A program made the position numbers and the translations under genes. A DNA stretch of 63,398 nt from Phycisphaerales bacterium (GTDB taxonomy: Bacteria > Planctomycetota > Phycisphaerae > Phycisphaerales > SM1A02): the NCBI GenBank assembly GCA_009691915.1, contig SIAD01000012.1, positions 1 through 63,398 on the forward strand, in the 5' to 3' direction. Shown in pieces: positions 3,021 through 22,410 of the stretch; within the stretch, counting starts at the first letter, position 1, and each line of letters opens with the position of its first letter. The notes beneath the pieces are model-generated. The model did not search any database. It was not told where the DNA came from and worked only from the letters and a program-made list of their open reading frames with translations.

Positions 3021-3911
3021 CTAGCAGCCGGATCGTGGATTCGCGCCGACTCGGCCTTTGAGGGCGTCAGCATGGGCCTTGACCGCATGCGCCCGGACTA
3101 TGGCCGCCCCGGCCGACGCCAAAAGGAGCGCGGCATCGACGCTTAGGGCATCGCGGCGCGCCGGATTGGCCTCCGCAGTTGCCACACCCAGAAACGACTT
3201 TCGGCTCGCCGAGACGAGTACAGGATGCCCGAGCGCGACGATCTCACTGAGCCGCGACATGAGTTCGAAGTTCTGTTCGACGGTTTTTCCGAACCCGAGA
3301 CCGGGGTCGATCGCGATCGCACGGGGCTCGACGCCACCCTCGATGGCAACGCGGACACGGCTCCCGAGGTAGTCGCGAACATGCACGACGACATCGGAGT
3401 ACTCAGGCGGCGTCTGATAGCGGTCGCTGTACGAGTCGCCCTCGGGTCTTCGCAGTCGGTGCATCAGAACGAGCCCGCACCCTCGCGCGGCCGCCAGCGG
3501 AATCATCTCGGGGTCGTCCTCACCGGCACTGACATCGTTGATGATCGTCGCGCCGGCATCAAGGGCGGCAGCGGCGACCATGGCGCGCGTAGTGTCGACG
3601 GAGATTGCAACGGAGCCCTCGGCAACGGACTCGATCCTGCGCATGAGCGCGATCGCGGGGACGACGCGCGCAATCTGTTCCGCTTCGCTCACTGCCTTCG
3701 CGCCCGGACGCGTGCTCTCGCCGCCAACATCGACAATCGACGCCCCGGCCTCAATGCACTCGCACGCCCACACGCATGCGCATGCAGGATCCTCGTGGAG
3801 TCCACCATCGGAGAAGGAATCGCTCGTCACATTGATGATCGCCATGATGAGCGGTCGCCCGCGCTCCCAGGCGAGCGTTCGCTCTCGGCCGATGCGCCAC
3901 TCGCAGAGCAC
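3021..3911 (-). CDS. folP: Dihydropteroate synthase
   Basis: 296 residues. It condenses 6-hydroxymethyl-dihydropterin diphosphate with p-aminobenzoate in folate synthesis. All family signatures are present: INVTSDSFSDGG near residue 25, the pABA loop GGESTRPGA, NDVSAG, DPGLGFGKT, and the late VSASRKSF. The start used gives a roughly 20-residue extension before the first motif; an ATG nearer IMAIINVT is possible. The upstream secreted-protein gene ends 7 bp before the start, which fits an operon. Confidence 0.93.
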   Translation of the reverse strand: MLCEWRIGRERTLAWERGRPLIMAIINVTSDSFSDGGLHEDPACACVWACECIEAGASIVDVGGESTRPGAKAVSEAEQIARVVPAIALMRRIESVAEGSVAISVDTTRAMVAAAALDAGATIINDVSAGEDDPEMIPLAAARGCGLVLMHRLRRPEGDSYSDRYQTPPEYSDVVVHVRDYLGSRVRVAIEGGVEPRAIAIDPGLGFGKTVEQNFELMSRLSEIVALGHPVLVSASRKSFLGVATAEANPARRDALSVDAALLLASAGAAIVRAHAVKAHADALKGRVGANPRSGC

Positions 3912-14581: not shown

Positions 14582-15625
14582 TCACGCGCAGACACGCGAC
14601 ATGATCCGCTGCGCGATGCGCACGCCCGTCAGCGCGGCACCGATCCTTATCTGATCCCCCGCGACAAAGAGTTGCAGCCCCATGCCGGGCTCGAGGCTCC
14701 AGTCACTGCGGATGCGCCCGACGAGCACAGGATCCCGCCCCGCGGCGATGATCGGCTCGGGGAAGGCGTTGCGCGCCCGGTCATCAACCAGCTCGACGCC
14801 CGGCGCCGCAGCCAGAATCTCCCGCGCACGCCCTTCGGTGAGAGGCCGTTCAAACTCGAGGGCGATCGACTCGCAGTGGGCGCGAAGAACCGGAACGCGC
14901 ACGCAGGTCGCGGTCACACGCACACTCTGGTCGCTCCAGATCTTCCGCGTCTCGTAGAGGATCTTGGCCTCCTCCTCGTTGTAGCCGGATTCCCCAACCG
15001 CGCTGTTGTGACTGAAGCAGTTGAAGAGGTACTGCCGTCCGAAGATGTCGGTCTGCAGGGGACGGCCATGCACGAAGTCGTGGGCCTGCGATTCGAGTTC
15101 GCGCATCGCGGCCGCACCCGCGCCGCTGGCCGCCTGATAGGTCGAGATGATCATTCGCTTGACGCGCGCGACAGCATGCAACGGCGTGACCGCCACCAGC
15201 GCGACGATCGTCGAACAATTGGGAACCGCGACGATCGACGGCCCCGCACACGCATCAAGCGCGGCGGCGTTCACCTCGGGAATCACCAGAGGAACCGCTG
15301 GATCCATGCGGAACGCGCTCGAGTTATCAATCACCCAGGCCCCGGAGGCCACCGCCTGCGGAGCCCACACCGTCGCGACCCCCTTGCCTGCCGAGAAGAA
15401 TGCGATGTCAACTGCGTCGAAACACCCGGGTCCAAGGGCCTCGATATCGATACCTTGCCCGCCTACCTCGACCCTTTTGCCCGCGCTGCGCGCGCTGGCG
15501 AACAGCCTCAGCCGCCCCGGTCGAATGGCCTGCGCCGCGAGCAGGCTGACGAACTCGGCTCCTACGGCTCCTGTGGCCCCCACCACCGCGATGGTCGGCC
15601 GATCTTGACCCAAGTCTTTTTGCAT
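14582..15625 (-). CDS. asd: Aspartate-semialdehyde dehydrogenase
   Basis: 347 residues. It reduces aspartyl-4-phosphate to the semialdehyde for Lys, Thr, Met and diaminopimelate. The NADP motif AVVGATGAVGAEFV is at the N-terminus, and the active-site Cys lies in VAVPNCSTIV near residue 137. YQAASGAG and the late RVPVLRAHCE segment also match. It stands alone between trpC (convergent) and the leader-peptide gene (divergent), so the 107-bp spacer at 15626-15732 should hold promoters for both. Confidence 0.95.
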   Translation of the reverse strand: MQKDLGQDRPTIAVVGATGAVGAEFVSLLAAQAIRPGRLRLFASARSAGKRVEVGGQGIDIEALGPGCFDAVDIAFFSAGKGVATVWAPQAVASGAWVIDNSSAFRMDPAVPLVIPEVNAAALDACAGPSIVAVPNCSTIVALVAVTPLHAVARVKRMIISTYQAASGAGAAAMRELESQAHDFVHGRPLQTDIFGRQYLFNCFSHNSAVGESGYNEEEAKILYETRKIWSDQSVRVTATCVRVPVLRAHCESIALEFERPLTEGRAREILAAAPGVELVDDRARNAFPEPIIAAGRDPVLVGRIRSDWSLEPGMGLQLFVAGDQIRIGAALTGVRIAQRIMSRVCA

Positions 15626-15642
15626 GAATTGCTTCCGCGTGC

Positions 15643-15670
15643 TTGCGAAGGAGCAACGCTATCGTATGGT
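15643..15670 (+). promoter_or_regulatory. Possible sigma70-like promoter for the leader peptide gene
   Basis: TTGCGA at 15643-15648 and TATGGT at 15665-15670 are separated by 16 bp. Each matches 4 of 6 consensus positions. It would give a leader of about 55 nt before the peptide ATG. Planctomycete promoters are poorly defined, so this is only a candidate. Confidence 0.25.
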
Positions 15671-15732
15671 TCCTCCGTGAATGGGGATCGGGAGCGTTTC
15701 CCGGCCTCGACCACGATTTTTAAGGAACATCC

Positions 15733-15891
15733 ATGTCACAGAAGCCAGCGAACAAGTCCACGACGTCCAAGACCACCGCCAAACCGGCGCGTCTGAGCGA
15801 TAAAGATCTGGAGATGGCAAGCGGAGGCGGCCGAAGCCGCGTCGCGCGCAACTCCACTGCGGCTCGCCAAGCACGCACCCCGAAGCGCTGA
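15733..15891 (+). CDS. Candidate double-glycine leader peptide (bacteriocin/RiPP-like precursor)
   Basis: 52 codons, ATG to TGA. AAGGA at 15722-15726 sits 6 nt before the ATG. The first 20 residues are Lys/Thr/Ser/Pro-rich. Residues 21-32 read LSDKDLEMASGG, which fits the double-glycine leader consensus LSxxELxxIxGG (Asp for Glu, Ala for Ile); a third Gly follows. The remaining 20 residues, from residue 33, have six Arg and one Lys, no Cys and no acidic residue, so a strongly cationic core is predicted. It faces the NHLM-type exporter operon, whose C39 peptidase would be expected to cut after Gly-Gly. A strong terminator follows. The motif and context are seen directly; the role as an exported peptide is inferred. 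Confidence 0.75.
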   Translation: MSQKPANKSTTSKTTAKPARLSDKDLEMASGGGRSRVARNSTAARQARTPKR

Positions 15892-15948: not shown

Positions 15949-15996
15949 GCAGTCGGTGACCGTACATGCTCCTGGACGGTCACCGACTGCTTTTTT
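15949..15996 (+). terminator. Rho-independent terminator of the leader peptide gene
   Basis: A perfect 15-bp stem (GCAGTCGGTGACCGT 15949-15963 with ACGGTCACCGACTGC 15976-15990) has a 12-nt loop and is followed by TTTTTT (15991-15996). It lies 57 nt after the peptide stop. The opposite strand has only a weak T-run, so it mainly serves the plus-strand gene and also insulates it from the convergent exporter operon. Confidence 0.9.
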
Positions 15997-16025: not shown

Positions 16026-18722
16026 TCAGATCGCATCGGAGACCTCAGAGTCGATCATCTGCCGTCGAGCCATCTCCTTGAAGATGCCCTCGCGCGACAT
16101 TAGTTCCTTGAAGGACCCAGACTGCACGATCCGCCCTGCGTGCATCACATAGATCCTGTCGGCCGTGCGGATCGTGCTAAGCCGATGCGCGACCACCAGC
16201 CGCGTCGCCTTGAGCCCCTCGAGACTTTCAACCACCTGCGCCTGCGAGACTTCGTCGAGCGCGCTCGTGGCCTCGTCGAAGATAAGGATCTTGGGGCGCG
16301 TCACCAGCGCGCGGGCAATCATGAGCTTCTGCACCTGGCCCCCCGAGAGGGTCTGATCGGTCACATAGGTGTGAACCCCCATGGGCATGTCGGCAACCTC
16401 ATCGGCGAACCCCGCGGCGGCAATTGCCCGCTCCGCGTCCTTGGGTGTGAATAGCGTGCTCCCGACAATGTTGTCGAGGATTGACCCGGGGACGATTCGA
16501 GTGTTCTGCACGACGGCGCCGATCTGCCGCCGCACCGCGACGAGGTCGAGCCGATCGAGGGGCTTGCCGTCGAAGAGGACGACGCCCGCATCGGGATCTC
16601 GCAGTCCGAGGATCAGTTGGAGCAATGTCGACTTGCCGCTTCCGCTTGGCCCAACGACCGCGACACATTGTCCCGCTTCGATCTGCATGCTGACTCCCGA
16701 GAGGACCTCGCTCGCGTGGCCCGGGTAGGAGAAGCGGACTTCGCCGAGTCGGATCTGACCGGTGAGCGCGCCGGGCTGCTCGCGGTCGCCCATGCGCTCG
16801 GTGCTGGCCTCGAGAATGGGCTTGATGCGGGCAAGCGTTGACTTGAGCGATGCGAGGTCTCCGAGCCGTTCGCCCAGTTCGAGCACCGAGTAGAGCGCGA
16901 TCACAAACGCACTGTTGAAGACCAGATACTCCGCGATCTGAAACGAGGCGTTGTTGCCACCTTCCTGCATGATTGTTCCCGCGGTCTTCCCCGGCAGAAA
17001 CATCGCCCAGAAGATCGCCAGGCATGCCATCGGAAAGGCCGAGGCAAAGATGTCGAAGATGAGATCGAGCCGGCGCGTCTTCATGGAGGCATCGCGGATC
17101 CCCTTGAATCGGCGAAGCCATCGCAGCGTCGCGTACTGCTCGGCGGCGGCGCTGCGGATGGTGTCCACGCCACCAATGAACTGCAGCACCATGCTCGAGA
17201 GACGCCCCTGCCCCTCCATGATCGATGCCGTGAGCCGCGCACGGGACACGCTGAGCAGAATGCTGACAAGGACCGCCACGACAAGGAGGCCCGCGCCGAC
17301 GGCGCCCGCAGTGGGATTCACCCAGACCATCAACCCGACATACACAATGGAGAATATTCCCGCGATGATCGCTGACACTCCTGCACCCGAGAGAACCGAC
17401 TGGAGATCCCCCACCGAGAGAATTCGGTCTGCAAGATCGCCGCTGCTGAACTCTCGAAATTTCTGGACGGGCATCCGCAGGCATCGGTCGAGCACACCCC
17501 CCAGCGCACGGCTCCCCAATCGCGTCTCCGCGCGCAGCAGGAGGTTGGACACGACGAAACTGCACGCGGCCGAAGTGAGTGTTGTGCCGAGAAGGACAAG
17601 TCCGATGAATAGAAGCGCGAGGCGATTGTTGCCGGGCAGGATCCGCGTCACGAGAACACCGATGGCGATCGGAACGGCGAGATTGACGATCGTTGCAACG
17701 CCCGTCACCATCATGGCGCGGACGTAGTCGGTCTCAGATCCACGAACTACGAAGCGCAGAAACCGCTTGATCGTTGTGTCCTCGTGCCCGAGCGTGGCAT
17801 GAAACTGCGACGCCCCCTTGCCAAGCCCCGAGGCAAACGCCGCATCAACGATCACCGGCCCTTGTGTTGCACCGGCCGAGTGCACGAACGCGACCATTCC
17901 GGCACTGGTGGGAACGATCGCCACCGGCGACTGATCTTCAGTCCGAAACGCCAGCAGCGCACCGACCCCGCTCGTCCACCAACCCGGGTCTAGGAACACC
18001 GGGCGGATTCCGAGTCCAGCTAGATGCGCAAAGACCTGCTCGGGTCTCCGGGTGGCGTCGCGGGGAAGCCGGGTGGGTACGACCGCACCGTCGCACCCCA
18101 TGTGCAACGCGATCTGCATGCATGCGCGGACGATGGGCGGGAGCCGTTCGTCCGGGAGGTCGCGCCAGGACGGGATCGCGCCGCGACTAACGGTCGCGGT
18201 GAGTTTGTCTTCGAAGGAGAGCGTCGCGCTCGCCGTACTCACGAGACGCCGCATGTGACGAGAGAAGGCCGTCTCGGTGATCGAGTCACCTCGACGAGCG
18301 AGTCCCTTCGAGCAGAGTTCGCGGGCCGACGCAAGTGTGGTTTTCGGTGGCAGCGAGATTCCGCAGGCGACGAGCGTTGCCGTGACTCCCGCCAGAAGCG
18401 ATCGTTCCGCGGGCGATCCCGCTCCCACTGACCCGAGCATCGCTGCAGGAATTCGCACACACTCCGCCTCGGACATCGGCACGAGCTCGATTCGCTCGAT
18501 GGGACCAACAATTGCGCATCCCTCGCCGAGCACCGCGACCTTGTGCCTCCGCGTGTGCCCTTCGCGATGGGCGAACACAACGAGCGCTCCCTGGACGACG
18601 ACCAGCATGTCCACCAGGGCGCCTGCATCGACGCCCTTGCGCCTATCGAGGAGCACTTCTTCGCCGCCGGTCTGGCGCGCCGCGTCGATAATCTCGGCCG
18701 GATTCGTGTGGGCGGCACTCAT
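16026..18722 (-). CDS. NHLM-type peptide exporter, second ABC transporter
   Basis: 898 residues. Residues 1-140 resemble a cyclic-nucleotide-binding/CAP-like domain. Residues of about 215-310 look like a C39-peptidase-like region without an evident catalytic Cys. A six-helix type 1 ABC membrane domain follows (about 335-630), then an ATPase with Walker A VVGPSGSGKSTLL, signature TLSGGQVQK and Walker B ILIFDEATSALD. This layout fits the NHLM bacteriocin-system ATP-binding protein family. The start overlaps the stop of the C39 transporter by 4 bp, so the two probably form a heterodimer. It is the last gene of the exporter operon and points toward the leader-peptide gene. Confidence 0.85.
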   Translation of the reverse strand: MSAAHTNPAEIIDAARQTGGEEVLLDRRKGVDAGALVDMLVVVQGALVVFAHREGHTRRHKVAVLGEGCAIVGPIERIELVPMSEAECVRIPAAMLGSVGAGSPAERSLLAGVTATLVACGISLPPKTTLASARELCSKGLARRGDSITETAFSRHMRRLVSTASATLSFEDKLTATVSRGAIPSWRDLPDERLPPIVRACMQIALHMGCDGAVVPTRLPRDATRRPEQVFAHLAGLGIRPVFLDPGWWTSGVGALLAFRTEDQSPVAIVPTSAGMVAFVHSAGATQGPVIVDAAFASGLGKGASQFHATLGHEDTTIKRFLRFVVRGSETDYVRAMMVTGVATIVNLAVPIAIGVLVTRILPGNNRLALLFIGLVLLGTTLTSAACSFVVSNLLLRAETRLGSRALGGVLDRCLRMPVQKFREFSSGDLADRILSVGDLQSVLSGAGVSAIIAGIFSIVYVGLMVWVNPTAGAVGAGLLVVAVLVSILLSVSRARLTASIMEGQGRLSSMVLQFIGGVDTIRSAAAEQYATLRWLRRFKGIRDASMKTRRLDLIFDIFASAFPMACLAIFWAMFLPGKTAGTIMQEGGNNASFQIAEYLVFNSAFVIALYSVLELGERLGDLASLKSTLARIKPILEASTERMGDREQPGALTGQIRLGEVRFSYPGHASEVLSGVSMQIEAGQCVAVVGPSGSGKSTLLQLILGLRDPDAGVVLFDGKPLDRLDLVAVRRQIGAVVQNTRIVPGSILDNIVGSTLFTPKDAERAIAAAGFADEVADMPMGVHTYVTDQTLSGGQVQKLMIARALVTRPKILIFDEATSALDEVSQAQVVESLEGLKATRLVVAHRLSTIRTADRIYVMHAGRIVQSGSFKELMSREGIFKEMARRQMIDSEVSDAI

Positions 18723-21007
18723 GGAGGAGCCCCACCGGTGACGAGGTTGCAGTAGTCCCCGCCAAGGTCAAGCAGCTGACCGTGCGTCCCGCGTTCGACG
18801 ACTTCCCCTGCACGCATTACGATGATCTCGTCCGCGTCGCGGATCGTGCTCAGACGATGGGCGACGACCACGCAGGTGACGCCGCGCCTACGAAGGGCCG
18901 CGTCGAGCGCAAGTTCTGTAACGGGGTCTAGCGCGCTAGTGGCCTCATCCATGATGAGGAGCGCCGGTCGCCGCGAAAGCGCACGGGCAATGTCGAGCCG
19001 CTGCGCCTCGCCTCCGGAGAAGTTGGTCCCGCCCTCGGACACTTGCATGTCGAGTCCGCCGCGCGAGGCGAGGAGCTCGGAGAGTTGCGCGTCCTCGAGT
19101 GCCTCGACCATCCACTGGTCGGGGATGTCGGGGTTCCACATGGAAAGGTTCTCGCGGATCGACCCCTCGAAAAACGCCGCCCGTTGGAACACTGTCGCCA
19201 CGCTCGCCGCGCGGACATGGCGTGGGATGTTGCCGAGTGGGATTCCGTCGAGAAGGATGTCGCCTTCCCAGGGATCGATGAGCCCCGAGGCCAACCGCGC
19301 CAGCGTCGACTTTCCTGAACCGGTTCCCCCCACGATGGCCGTACGCCCCCCTGCCTTCACCGTGAGAGACAAGTCGCTCAGGAGCGCGCGCTGACCGTGT
19401 CCGTACCCGAAGGTCACGCCACGAAGTTCAAGCTCCCCAGCGGCGTATTCGATCTCACGGGCGTCGTCGACCGAAGGGTCGAGCGCGAGGCGGTCGACTC
19501 CGTGGCACAGGACATCGTCGAGGCGACCGAGGTCGGCGCGGACTGTCTGGATCTCCTTCAGAAGCTCCGCCAGTTGCGTGACCGGGGTCATGAATCCCAC
19601 GAGCAGGATCTGGAGCCCAAGCAGCATGCCGATGGACATGTGTCCCTCCATGACCTGCCATCCGCCGAACGAGAGGATCAGCACCGACACGACCAGCGCC
19701 TGGAACCATGTGGGGATGACGCTGACTGCATTGGAGAGAAGACTCGCGCGCTGTTGCGCTGCGCTGACGCGCGCGGCGAAGGCCATCGAACGGCCGAAGA
19801 AGTCGGCTTCCCGTCCGCTGGCCTTTAGGGATTCGAGCGTCATGAGTCCGGCAACGATCGCGCCCTGCTTCATTCCCTCCTGCTGCGAGAGCGACTGCGC
19901 CTGATCGACACGAGCGCGCGCCACCACAAAGAGCATGCCGAGCGTCGCGGAGACGGCGACGAGGGCGATCCCGGCTATCAGGAGATTGATCGACGCGATC
20001 GCGCAGAAGAACACCAGAAGCGTCAGGACCTGCACGATCGCGGGCGCGAACTTCGACGAGAGCAGTGAGGCGACGCCATCATTGGCCTGCACGCGCTCGG
20101 CGATATCGCCGGGGTACCTCTGACCGAAAAATGTTGTCGGCAGCCGGAAGATCTGCTTCATGAACTCGATGCTGCGCTCGAGTGAGAGGCGATTCTCCAG
20201 TTGCGAGAGGATCCGCTGCTGGAGGTAGAGGAGCCCGGCCTCGATGATGAGCGCGCCCAGCACGCCGAGCATCAGCCAGACCATCCAGTCTGAGCGTTCC
20301 TGCGCTAGGACGATGTCCACATAGGCGGCGGCCATGCCGGGAATTGCCACCATCGGCACCGCGAGGAGCAGTCCGACAAAGACAGTCAGCCAAACGGCAC
20401 TCTCGCTGCCGCGCATCCACTGCGTGACGAGTGCCAGCGACGAGGGAGGATCGCCTGTCGCCACAAACTCCTCGCCCGGCTCCATCGTGAGAACCACCCC
20501 GGTGAATTCCTGGTCAAACTCCTCGGGGCTGACGAGCCGCCGTCCCGCCGCGGGATCCATGATTCGGTAACCCTTCTTCGTCCACCCTTCGAGGACGACG
20601 AAGTGGTTGAGCCCCCAGAACACGATGATGGGGAGCGCGATCTCCTCGAATCCCTCGATCTCGCACTTGAGTCCTTCGGTGTCGAGGCCGAAGTGCCGAG
20701 CGGCACGGGCGATGCGCAGCGCGTTGGATCCGTCGCGGTCGACACCTACCGCCTCCCGAACTTCTTCGAGCGGTCTGTAGGCGTGATGGAAACCCAGCAC
20801 ACTGGCGAGGCTGGCCGCGCCGCACTCCGCAGCGACCACCTGCATGACGGTCGGGACGCGGACGGAGCGCGGTGGCCCCGGCGGCAATCGCGGCCCCATC
20901 ACTTCGGATTCTTCGCTGTCGCTGTCAGAGGCGTCGCTCTCGGGCTCCGCCGCCATCTCCTCGTCCGCAGATTCGTCTTTAGGTTCGCGCGTGTCCGGAT
21001 CGCTCAT
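18719..21007 (-). CDS. NHLM-type peptidase C39 ABC transporter (PCAT)
   Basis: 762 residues. After a very acidic Asp/Glu/Ser-rich N-terminal tail (about 1-37) comes a complete C39 peptidase domain: Gln56 and Cys62 in VMQVVAAECGAASLA, His135 in GLNHFVVLEGW, and Asp151 in IMDPAAG. The type 1 ABC membrane domain spans roughly 195-480, and the ATPase has Walker A IVGGTGSGKSTLA, signature NFSGGEAQR and Walker B LLIMDEATSALD. C39 transporters cut leaders after Gly-Gly and export the core. 4-bp overlaps join it to the fusion-protein gene and the second ABC gene. Confidence 0.92.
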   Translation of the reverse strand: MSDPDTREPKDESADEEMAAEPESDASDSDSEESEVMGPRLPPGPPRSVRVPTVMQVVAAECGAASLASVLGFHHAYRPLEEVREAVGVDRDGSNALRIARAARHFGLDTEGLKCEIEGFEEIALPIIVFWGLNHFVVLEGWTKKGYRIMDPAAGRRLVSPEEFDQEFTGVVLTMEPGEEFVATGDPPSSLALVTQWMRGSESAVWLTVFVGLLLAVPMVAIPGMAAAYVDIVLAQERSDWMVWLMLGVLGALIIEAGLLYLQQRILSQLENRLSLERSIEFMKQIFRLPTTFFGQRYPGDIAERVQANDGVASLLSSKFAPAIVQVLTLLVFFCAIASINLLIAGIALVAVSATLGMLFVVARARVDQAQSLSQQEGMKQGAIVAGLMTLESLKASGREADFFGRSMAFAARVSAAQQRASLLSNAVSVIPTWFQALVVSVLILSFGGWQVMEGHMSIGMLLGLQILLVGFMTPVTQLAELLKEIQTVRADLGRLDDVLCHGVDRLALDPSVDDAREIEYAAGELELRGVTFGYGHGQRALLSDLSLTVKAGGRTAIVGGTGSGKSTLARLASGLIDPWEGDILLDGIPLGNIPRHVRAASVATVFQRAAFFEGSIRENLSMWNPDIPDQWMVEALEDAQLSELLASRGGLDMQVSEGGTNFSGGEAQRLDIARALSRRPALLIMDEATSALDPVTELALDAALRRRGVTCVVVAHRLSTIRDADEIIVMRAGEVVERGTHGQLLDLGGDYCNLVTGGAPP

Positions 21008-21879
21008 CGCTCATCACCGACGCCGCCGCCAAACCCTGGCATCACTAGCGCCACCGGACGGATCTCACCGATGTAGATCTCGATGTTGCAGGGGGCACCG
21101 TCCACAAGCATCCCGGCCGCTCCCTTGCCCCCGACCCACTTCACGCCGCCAGCGCCATCGGGATCTTCGTCAAGCTTCACCGTCACGGCCATCACCGACC
21201 CAAAGGTGCCCAGAATCTCTTCGACAATCGTGTGGCTTGGCACATGACCCAGCGCCTTCTGCTTGCTCGTGATGAAGTGGTCGACTTGAACAATTGTCCC
21301 GAGCGACTGCACGTCGCCGGCTGAGTCGGCACTCGCGAAGCTCACTCGAACCGGCATCCCGATAACGACACTCTTTCCCTCGCTCAATGGGATAAACGCG
21401 AGGCAGCTCGGGTGCGGCGCACCGGAAATGACGAGGGCGATCGACTGTCCGCTCTCGACGAAGTCTCCTGATTCGGACTCGAGTGAGACAAGACGGCCGG
21501 CCTTGGGAGCGCGCACCTCGCTGATGGCCGCGTCCGCCGATCCACCCGCGAGCGAGGCGATGCGTTGCCCAGCGACGACCGTCGCCCCTTCGGGTAGGTC
21601 GATCGACGCGATGTATCCACTGGTGTGCGCGTTACAGGTGTCGAGCTGCTCCCCGCGCAGGAAGATCCCGCTGCCGATCACCGTGATGGGGATGCGCCCC
21701 GCGAAACTCCACACCACGACGGTCGCAAGCAGGAACGCGAGTGTCGCCGTCAGGATCCAGAGTCTGGGTTCAACGATCGGGCTCAGGGTGTTGAGGCGAT
21801 TCCGGCCTCCAACGGCCCCCAGTGCCTCCACGCGAAAGAGTTCCTTCTTTCCTTCGTCGGGCTCTGCCATGTCTCCCAT
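21004..21879 (-). CDS. NHLM-type HlyD-like secretion (membrane fusion) protein
   Basis: About 291 residues using the ATG at 21879; MAEPDEGK at 21870 is an alternative. The frame remains open to 22044, but that part overlaps apaG. One transmembrane helix (ILTATLAFLLATVVVWSFAG) precedes a biotinyl-lipoyl-like hairpin (ASIDLPEGATVVAGQRIASL, APKAGRLVSLESESGDFVESGQ) and a beta-barrel region. This fits the periplasmic adaptor of NHLM bacteriocin export. It is the first gene of the exporter operon, 34 bp after apaG, and overlaps the C39 transporter by 4 bp. Confidence 0.85.
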   Translation of the reverse strand: MGDMAEPDEGKKELFRVEALGAVGGRNRLNTLSPIVEPRLWILTATLAFLLATVVVWSFAGRIPITVIGSGIFLRGEQLDTCNAHTSGYIASIDLPEGATVVAGQRIASLAGGSADAAISEVRAPKAGRLVSLESESGDFVESGQSIALVISGAPHPSCLAFIPLSEGKSVVIGMPVRVSFASADSAGDVQSLGTIVQVDHFITSKQKALGHVPSHTIVEEILGTFGSVMAVTVKLDEDPDGAGGVKWVGGKGAAGMLVDGAPCNIEIYIGEIRPVALVMPGFGGGVGDER

Positions 21880-21913: not shown

Positions 21914-22315
21914 TCAGGCAGGAGCCGCGAAGTAGAACCGCGACACCTGCGCGTCAAAGGACGAGGCGTCGTCGCGCTCAAAGACGAAGTGCCCTTCCAT
22001 CGTGCCCCACGCTGTGGGGAGCGGACAGAAGCTGGAGTACTCAAAGCTCTCGCCAGGCGCCAGAGACGGATGCTGCCCGACGACTCCAGGGCCGTTCACA
22101 TCATGCTGTACCCCGTCGGCATCGACTACATGCCACTCCCTGCTGCGAAGACGAGCGCTGCATTCGCCTTCATTTGTCATATGGATCTTGTAGGCGAAAG
22201 TGAATCGCCCGCGCCGGGCATCCGAGCGGCTCTCAATGAACGAGGGATCCACGCGGATGCGGATCCCCTGCGTCAGCGTCTCTGATCCAAGCGACTTGAC
22301 GGCACTGGTGGTCAT
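21914..22315 (-). CDS. apaG: ApaG-domain protein
   Basis: 133 residues from MTTSAVKSLG; the longer in-frame start at 22384 would run close to the tRNA and adds no family sequence. The Fn3-like ApaG fold is shown by FTFAYKIHMTNEG, LRSREWHVVDADG, GVVGQHPSLAPGESFEYSSFC and the Gly-rich MEGHFVF near the end. Its exact function is uncertain in the family (CorD in some enterobacteria). It is in the same direction as the exporter operon, 34 bp upstream, and may share its promoter. Confidence 0.92.
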   Translation of the reverse strand: MTTSAVKSLGSETLTQGIRIRVDPSFIESRSDARRGRFTFAYKIHMTNEGECSARLRSREWHVVDADGVQHDVNGPGVVGQHPSLAPGESFEYSSFCPLPTAWGTMEGHFVFERDDASSFDAQVSRFYFAAPA

Positions 22316-22410
22316 CGCTGAAGAGGATAGGCGATGGGAAGCCAGAATCAGCTTCGCCGTTGCCACGCTTTGTATGATCGGCACGGACGGGTATCTTCCC
22401 TATCCGCATT

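Follow-up and report, generated by a model that had tools for sequence, protein, structure and literature searches.

A 52-codon gene at positions 15733..15891 (plus strand) of the window, the 63,398-nucleotide stretch of Phycisphaerales DNA analysed here, is a real gene, and its basic product is most likely the lineage-specific cargo of a branch of NHLM-like exporters. The precursors with which NHLM-type exporters are known to be associated, NHLP and Nif11, carry long leaders and mostly yield modified products. ABC transporters with a C39 peptidase cut double-glycine leaders after Gly-Gly. Export after such a C39 cleavage is the best reading of the gene, and we hold it with good confidence. 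That the peptide is the cargo of the exporter encoded next to it is suggested by its genomic context and its leader motif.

A conserved precursor gene and its signals

The gene, whose coordinates include the stop codon, was recognized from its open reading frame, its homologues, their alignment and pN/pS. The 52-residue product is MSQKPANKSTTSKTTAKPARLSDKDLEMASGGGRSRVARNSTAARQARTPKR. Its leader of 32 codons (15733..15828, plus strand) consists of variable, Lys/Ser/Thr-rich residues 1-20 followed by LSDKDLEMASGG as residues 21-32. The predicted mature peptide GRSRVARNSTAARQARTPKR (15829..15888, plus strand) has 20 residues, a net charge of +7 and no Cys, Asp or Glu, in agreement with the cationic, Cys-free 20-residue tail described in an earlier note on this DNA. 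The same note had ascribed to the gene a good ribosome-binding site and a strong terminator, and both were found. The sequence AAGGA (15722..15726, plus strand) ends 6 nt before the ATG, and a purine-rich motif is present at this position in relatives as well. The intrinsic terminator (15949..15996, plus strand) comprises a hairpin at 15949-15990 and a following T6, the hairpin being assigned -31.7 kcal/mol (z -7.4), a value that none of 200 shuffles equalled. The consensus fold from 18 genomes contains 18 pairs, 15 of which lie in the terminator hairpin. Seven of these 15 covary, with compensatory changes in at least one sequence where both sides are altered and the pair is kept. The T-run of the terminator is interrupted in one genome (G017).

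Of 41 genomes searched, the window's own and 17 of the 18 others in its genus contain homologues of the peptide at E <= 7e-12; the sole genus genome with no match (G010) is 70% complete. In the 22 genomes from other genera, the direct search gave nothing below E 0.038. Weak matches were treated as noise (rows above E 1e-11 in the direct search and above E 0.001 in the profile search). Six such places were read (three in G009 and one each in G256, G167 and G063) and held no plausible precursor, since their frames are long or have no start, run across a stop, or are devoid of the motif. By record title, three of the 17 related loci originate from Lake Baikal, as seen in a separate scan.

The alignment of 18 precursor proteins has 17 invariant columns. 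Across these 18 distinct sequences the uncorrected pN/pS is 0.30 overall, indicating purifying selection. Broken down by part, it is 0.47 in leader residues 1-20 and 0.22 in both the GG motif and the core. The frame and the G-[GA] motif, whose conservation in related genomes had been named as a check on the gene, are kept in all 18 sequences found. We consider the chance that the reading frame is spurious negligible. The ORF is short and has no known domain, the peptide giving no match at E <= 1 in Pfam and NCBIfam, but the start, stop, ribosome-binding site and terminator are conserved in 18 genomes together with the low pN/pS, and conservation across the genus rules out a chance ORF.

An alignment of 18 upstream regions revealed a block TTGC ... 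TA[TC]CGTA (15643..15666, plus strand), which 18 of 18 genus genomes share in the interval that separates the peptide gene from the divergent dehydrogenase gene. The block may be a promoter, serving either the peptide gene or its divergent neighbour. Its spacing misfits a standard sigma-70 promoter, and an ECF-type promoter is possible.

The adjoining exporter and the predicted cut

Three exporter genes follow on the minus strand, convergent with the peptide gene. The nearest, ABC2 (16026..18722), encodes a permease/ATPase without a peptidase; ABC1 (18719..21007) encodes a C39 peptidase/permease/ATPase (PF03412), and the third encodes a HlyD-like adaptor (21004..21879). The HlyD-like ORF extends to 22044 (TTG), so its start is uncertain, and the ATG at 21879 is the reading chosen. 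The best models for ABC1, ABC2 and the adaptor are TIGR03796 (813 bits, cut-off 853), TIGR03797 (647 bits, cut-off 709) and TIGR03794 (117 bits, cut-off 156), respectively. Of the earlier proposal of an NHLM exporter at 16.0-21.9 kb, the three-gene layout of HlyD, C39-ABC and ABC on the minus strand stands. Because all three genes fall below the curated NHLM cut-offs, however, the exporter is called NHLM-like and not a strict equivalog; judged by these scores, it is a divergent branch of NHLM, not a strict member. Outer-membrane channel genes (PF02321) are present in the window's genome on other contigs.

The C39 search of the window's genome returned one match only, ABC1, whose C39 domain is placed at 20408-20875 on the minus strand. 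Its catalytic Cys, His and Asp and its oxyanion Gln align with the LahT protease domain (6mpz) at E 9e-35, and the Cys-His-Asp triad of LahT is named in passages of PMC6363468. LahT, the exporter of a Nif11-type lanthipeptide, provides the closest solved C39 domain to ABC1. The LahT cluster has Nif11-type precursors according to the same passages (PMC6363468), whereas the window's genus has none over the cut-off and no LanC-like match.

The locus is marked on its two sides by a gene for aspartate-semialdehyde dehydrogenase (14582..15625, minus strand), which lies 107 bp upstream of the peptide gene and is divergent from it, and by the ApaG gene (21914..22384, minus strand). In all 18 genomes with the peptide, its gene is tail-to-tail with ABC2 and has the dehydrogenase on the other side. 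The 18 loci are the window, G002 and 16 fetched ones, three of which reach contig ends and have ABC2 or the dehydrogenase partial. The expectation that the peptide gene would occur beside exporters thus held in 18 of 18 cases.

The end of the leader displays the features of C39 substrates. In LSDKDLEMASGG the register is L-12, L-7, A-4, S-3, G-2 and G-1. L-12 and L-7 occur in all 18 sequences, Ala occupies position -4 in 17 of them and Val in the remaining one, and positions -2/-1 are GG in 17 and GA in one; the third G is replaced by Ala in G018 and the second G by Ala in G017. This corresponds to the C39 (PCAT/AMS) substrate pattern of GG, GA or GS with hydrophobic residues at -4, -7 and -12, the register used for comparison being that in passages of PMC6363468. 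Ala is small for position -4, which in LahT substrates is usually taken by Val, Leu or Ile according to the same source (PMC6363468). The motif and register therefore fit the double-glycine consensus that had been proposed for the leader, and only the cut site was moved, to a position after the second G that gives GRSRVARNSTAARQARTPKR. Based on the L-12/L-7/-4/GG register and on the Ala that follows GG in G018, the cut is likely to fall after this second G, residue 32, and to release a 20-mer. The predicted product has a GRAVY of -1.57 and almost no hydrophobic residue.

In the proposed mechanism, the gene at 15733-15891 would give rise to the 52-residue precursor, and the C39 domain of ABC1 would grip the last 12 leader residues and cut after the second Gly. 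The ABC1/ABC2 pair, in concert with HlyD and with an outer-membrane channel whose gene lies elsewhere, would then export the basic 20-residue peptide unmodified. We infer cleavage, export and the unmodified state from sequence features.

The families usually associated with NHLM exporters are scarce in the genus. NHLP (TIGR03793) has no match in the window's genome (G000) or in 18 of the 19 genus genomes; none of the 19 reaches the Nif11 cut-off (PF07862), with no match at all in the window's genome. The precursor peptide itself matches neither the NHLP nor the Nif11 (PF07862, TIGR03798) models. On these absent matches an NHLP or Nif11 cargo was rejected for the window's genome, and the lack of NHLP and of Nif11 over the cut-off across the genus supports the suggestion of the earlier note that a different cargo class is present. 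LanC-like matches were found in none of the 19 genus genomes, and YcaO in one (G015) and not in the window's genome. LanC-like and YcaO proteins were the modification enzymes searched for, and since the window's genome matched neither, lanthipeptide or azole modification appears unlikely there.

An NHLP leader gene and a YcaO gene lie about 200 bp apart in G015 (C26:11504-12923, minus strand), on a contig other than that of the peptide. The only C39 match of G015 is the NHLM-like exporter of the basic-peptide branch, and one exporter may serve two cargo classes there. As the basic peptide and NHLP occur together in G015, the exporter may have cargo other than the basic peptide.

Basic precursors and exporter lineage in the order

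The C39-domain search matched 36 of 251 genomes of the order. Of these, 23 lie outside the genus; the exporter loci of 22 of the 23 were fetched at length, and the region 3' of ABC2 was read. In nine of these 22 loci, belonging to three other genera of the family, a short basic GG precursor lies 3' of ABC2 on the opposite strand. All nine are Cys-free, Asp/Glu-free and Lys/Arg-rich, and all are tail-to-tail with the exporter. The precursor filter, fixed only after peptides had been seen, gave 0 of 22 in upstream flanks and 0 of 440 in dinucleotide-shuffled flanks; in the L080 flank scan the end of ABC2 was taken as 3380, the frame ending at 3402. Loose matches in L071 and L079 were discarded as chance, and one in L069 was set apart as SGAG type. 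The precursor of L064 reads maeakkpkkLSADDMKKVAGG before the predicted cut and AKSRSTSTSSVGRTGPRKSTRGR after it, and that of L075 reads mtnnkkLNAQELATIQGG and GAKAGAKRSGLAKASSGRVKPKAVNLGAKKR, respectively. The gene order of G019 (ApaG, HlyD, ABC1, ABC2, peptide, dehydrogenase) is unchanged, and its peptide slot holds a precursor with MSSKNSTGKHGNKMTDASLAKIVGG before the cut and KASVSL... after it, which the direct peptide search had missed. Cores vary between genera and are largely conserved inside each genus, and the 12-residue register is constant, with L/M(-12), L/M(-7), A/V/I(-4) and GG shared across genera.

With a profile built from 16 precursors, 22 of the 251 order genomes gave matches at E <= 5.1e-8, every one of them belonging to the 36 exporter genomes. 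Among the 251, no genome lacking a C39 exporter match gave a clear peptide match, at most 26 candidates being scored per genome, a scheme in which exporter-less copies could have been missed. Because 15 of the 22 matched genomes had supplied rows to the profile, the informative part of this result is that no exporter-less genome matched clearly. The association of peptide and exporter over the 251 genomes has p 2e-22, and the near-exclusive split between peptide and NHLP in the 36 exporter genomes has a Fisher p of 0.0002; neither value is corrected for phylogeny, so weight was put on the ABC1 tree. Among the 37 rows of this tree, the 24 with the basic peptide form one branch (support 100/99), and nine from NHLP genomes form a separate branch (100/100). 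A stop in the over-extended N-terminal end of one row (L078) was entered as X. Long branches meet in the tree (L062, and the SGAG and multi-GG rows versus the NHLP rows), and the deep branch order is therefore unsure. NHLP leaders were detected in 13 of the 251 genomes, namely nine exporter genomes that lack the basic peptide, G015, which has the two together, and three in which the C39 search had matched nothing.

The other five exporter genomes carry precursors of other kinds. Convergent precursors ending in MSKDDFKKVSGA or ISKDEFKKISGA occur in G206 and G237, and multi-GG proteins lie 3' of ABC2 in G113 and G043. The exporter of G152 is cut by a contig end, and its precursor looks Nif11-like by eye. 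The G113 protein (L080:2752-3327, plus strand) has 191 residues and three sites in C39 spacing (IDKSKLAGASGG, FSKTDAHSIVGG and FTKTDAQNIVGG), with Ala at -7 in two of the three and repeated segments SKNPAE...GFEKSGRF between them. It is possibly a multi-peptide precursor. A second small GG protein is encoded at 2378-2560 of L080. In G043 a repetitive GG protein lies 3' of ABC2 (L071:13835-14473 and 15359-15778, both minus strand), and its repeats are tandem basic segments, several with KLGATSGG-like ends. ECF sigma factor genes are located beside multi-GG or SGAG loci (L080:1449-2120 and L070:2314-3378, both minus strand). Both match PF07638 and the one in L080 also TIGR02999, similar proteins being seen by eye in L069 and L071; it is possible that these factors regulate the cargo of the multi-GG and SGAG loci.

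G024, of the same family, has 18 TIGR03793 matches, several of them on contig C22, representing a large NHLP precursor expansion. Second, weaker C39 matches were present in G117, G140 and G024. Outside the order, five of 397 genomes of the class gave C39 matches, each with one ABC gene and no separate ABC2, so that these loci are not clearly of the same exporter type; no basic precursor of the window type was seen in the five. Different GG precursors (L138:354-581 and L139:2313-2480, both minus strand) lie on contigs with C39 ABC genes in other families of the class, and the one in L138 passes the class I lanthipeptide leader cut-off (30.5 vs 22 bits).

Alternative readings and the role of the peptide

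Class II microcins and bacteriocins are short unmodified GG-leader precursors exported by a C39 ABC transporter. A classical unmodified bacteriocin of this class II microcin-like kind, exported by the window system and killing competitors, would account for a short basic GG-leader peptide beside a C39 ABC exporter. The L075 precursor also matches PF10439 (E 0.0019), TIGR03949 (E 0.0006) and TIGR01847 (15.1 bits, cut-off 15.7) weakly, all below cut-off. We nevertheless regard this reading as unlikely. Unlike class II bacteriocins (PF10439, TIGR01847), the window has a two-ABC exporter of NHLM type and a core that is both hydrophilic and conserved, and the precursors give no family match over the cut-off. 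Core and GG motif are equally conserved (pN/pS 0.22 each), the GRAVY of -1.57 with almost no hydrophobic residue argues against pore formation, a small immunity gene was not seen by inspection of the conserved locus, and a second precursor was not found in the window's genome.

The main cargo could instead be another precursor encoded elsewhere, NHLP-like or unrecognised, with the peptide gene as a secondary passenger. G015, in which NHLP and YcaO genes are close together and only one C39 exporter matches, speaks for such an arrangement, but it becomes improbable in view of the other 18 genus genomes, which have no NHLP match, of the lack of Nif11 over the cut-off in all 19, and of the presence of the peptide in 18 of the 19. 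The very basic composition would also suit a small intracellular nucleic-acid-binding or regulatory protein in which the GG motif is no cleavage site. This we consider very improbable, as the 12-residue spacing to GG is constant across genera with poorly aligning cores and all genomes with a clear match also have a C39 exporter.

The preferred reading, a C39-processed peptide of an NHLM-like exporter, shares features with several known systems. The three-gene HlyD, C39-ABC and ABC exporter with a precursor nearby, and a leader end of the L-S-D-x-x-L-(x)4-G-G type, resemble NHLM/NHLP systems as portrayed in passages of PMC2887384. In contrast to NHLP, the window cargo has no nitrile-hydratase-like leader and no Cys, is convergent with the exporter, and has a conserved core and one copy found in the genome. 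For NHLP, Haft et al. 2010 describe in those passages a hypervariable region after GG, many sequences being Cys/Ser/Thr-rich (PMC2887384). In cyanobacterial C39/HlyD bacteriocin clusters, too, GG precursors of diverse kinds adjoin C39 exporters, and some of the clusters include a second ABC gene (PMC3140520). In the corresponding passages, Wang et al. report little core conservation and up to sixteen precursors arrayed together (PMC3140520), whereas the window has one conserved precursor tail-to-tail with ABC2. The conserved core thus contrasts with the variable NHLP and cyanobacterial cores of these accounts (PMC2887384, PMC3140520).

Once exported, the peptide would most likely work outside the cell as a conserved factor that signals self-recognition or binds anionic surfaces, and not as a bacteriocin that evolves fast. 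The conserved core, the one copy found per genome, the lack of a visible immunity gene and the hydrophilic basic character of the core speak against a bacteriocin that forms pores or takes part in an arms race, and the same four features would favour a signal or an anionic-surface-binding factor. No receptor, immunity or regulator gene beside the peptide was apparent by inspection, which makes any outside role guesswork. We give a signal or surface factor about an even chance, an antimicrobial role a distinctly smaller one, and other roles a smaller one still.

Our search, which covered mainly open-access papers, brought up no previous account of such precursors, and the class is thus a candidate for novelty only. 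Passages of a freshwater Planctomycetes genome study contain one bacteriocin mention, for the group Planctomycetacia_diverse (PMC6461901). Tentatively, and with rather less than even confidence, we propose that an exporter branch, probably of Phycisphaerales, is dedicated to undescribed, unmodified, Cys-free basic peptides that serve as conserved species- or genus-level signals or surface factors, and that the tandem-GG proteins occupying this slot in sister exporters may be processed into several peptides. On this view an entire branch of related exporters would be tied to very small basic peptides that look unmodified and are readily overlooked by gene finders. Should this hold, a group of uncultured Planctomycetota, in part from Lake Baikal, would gain a testable secreted peptide, and the cargo class of an exporter might be predictable from its phylogeny.
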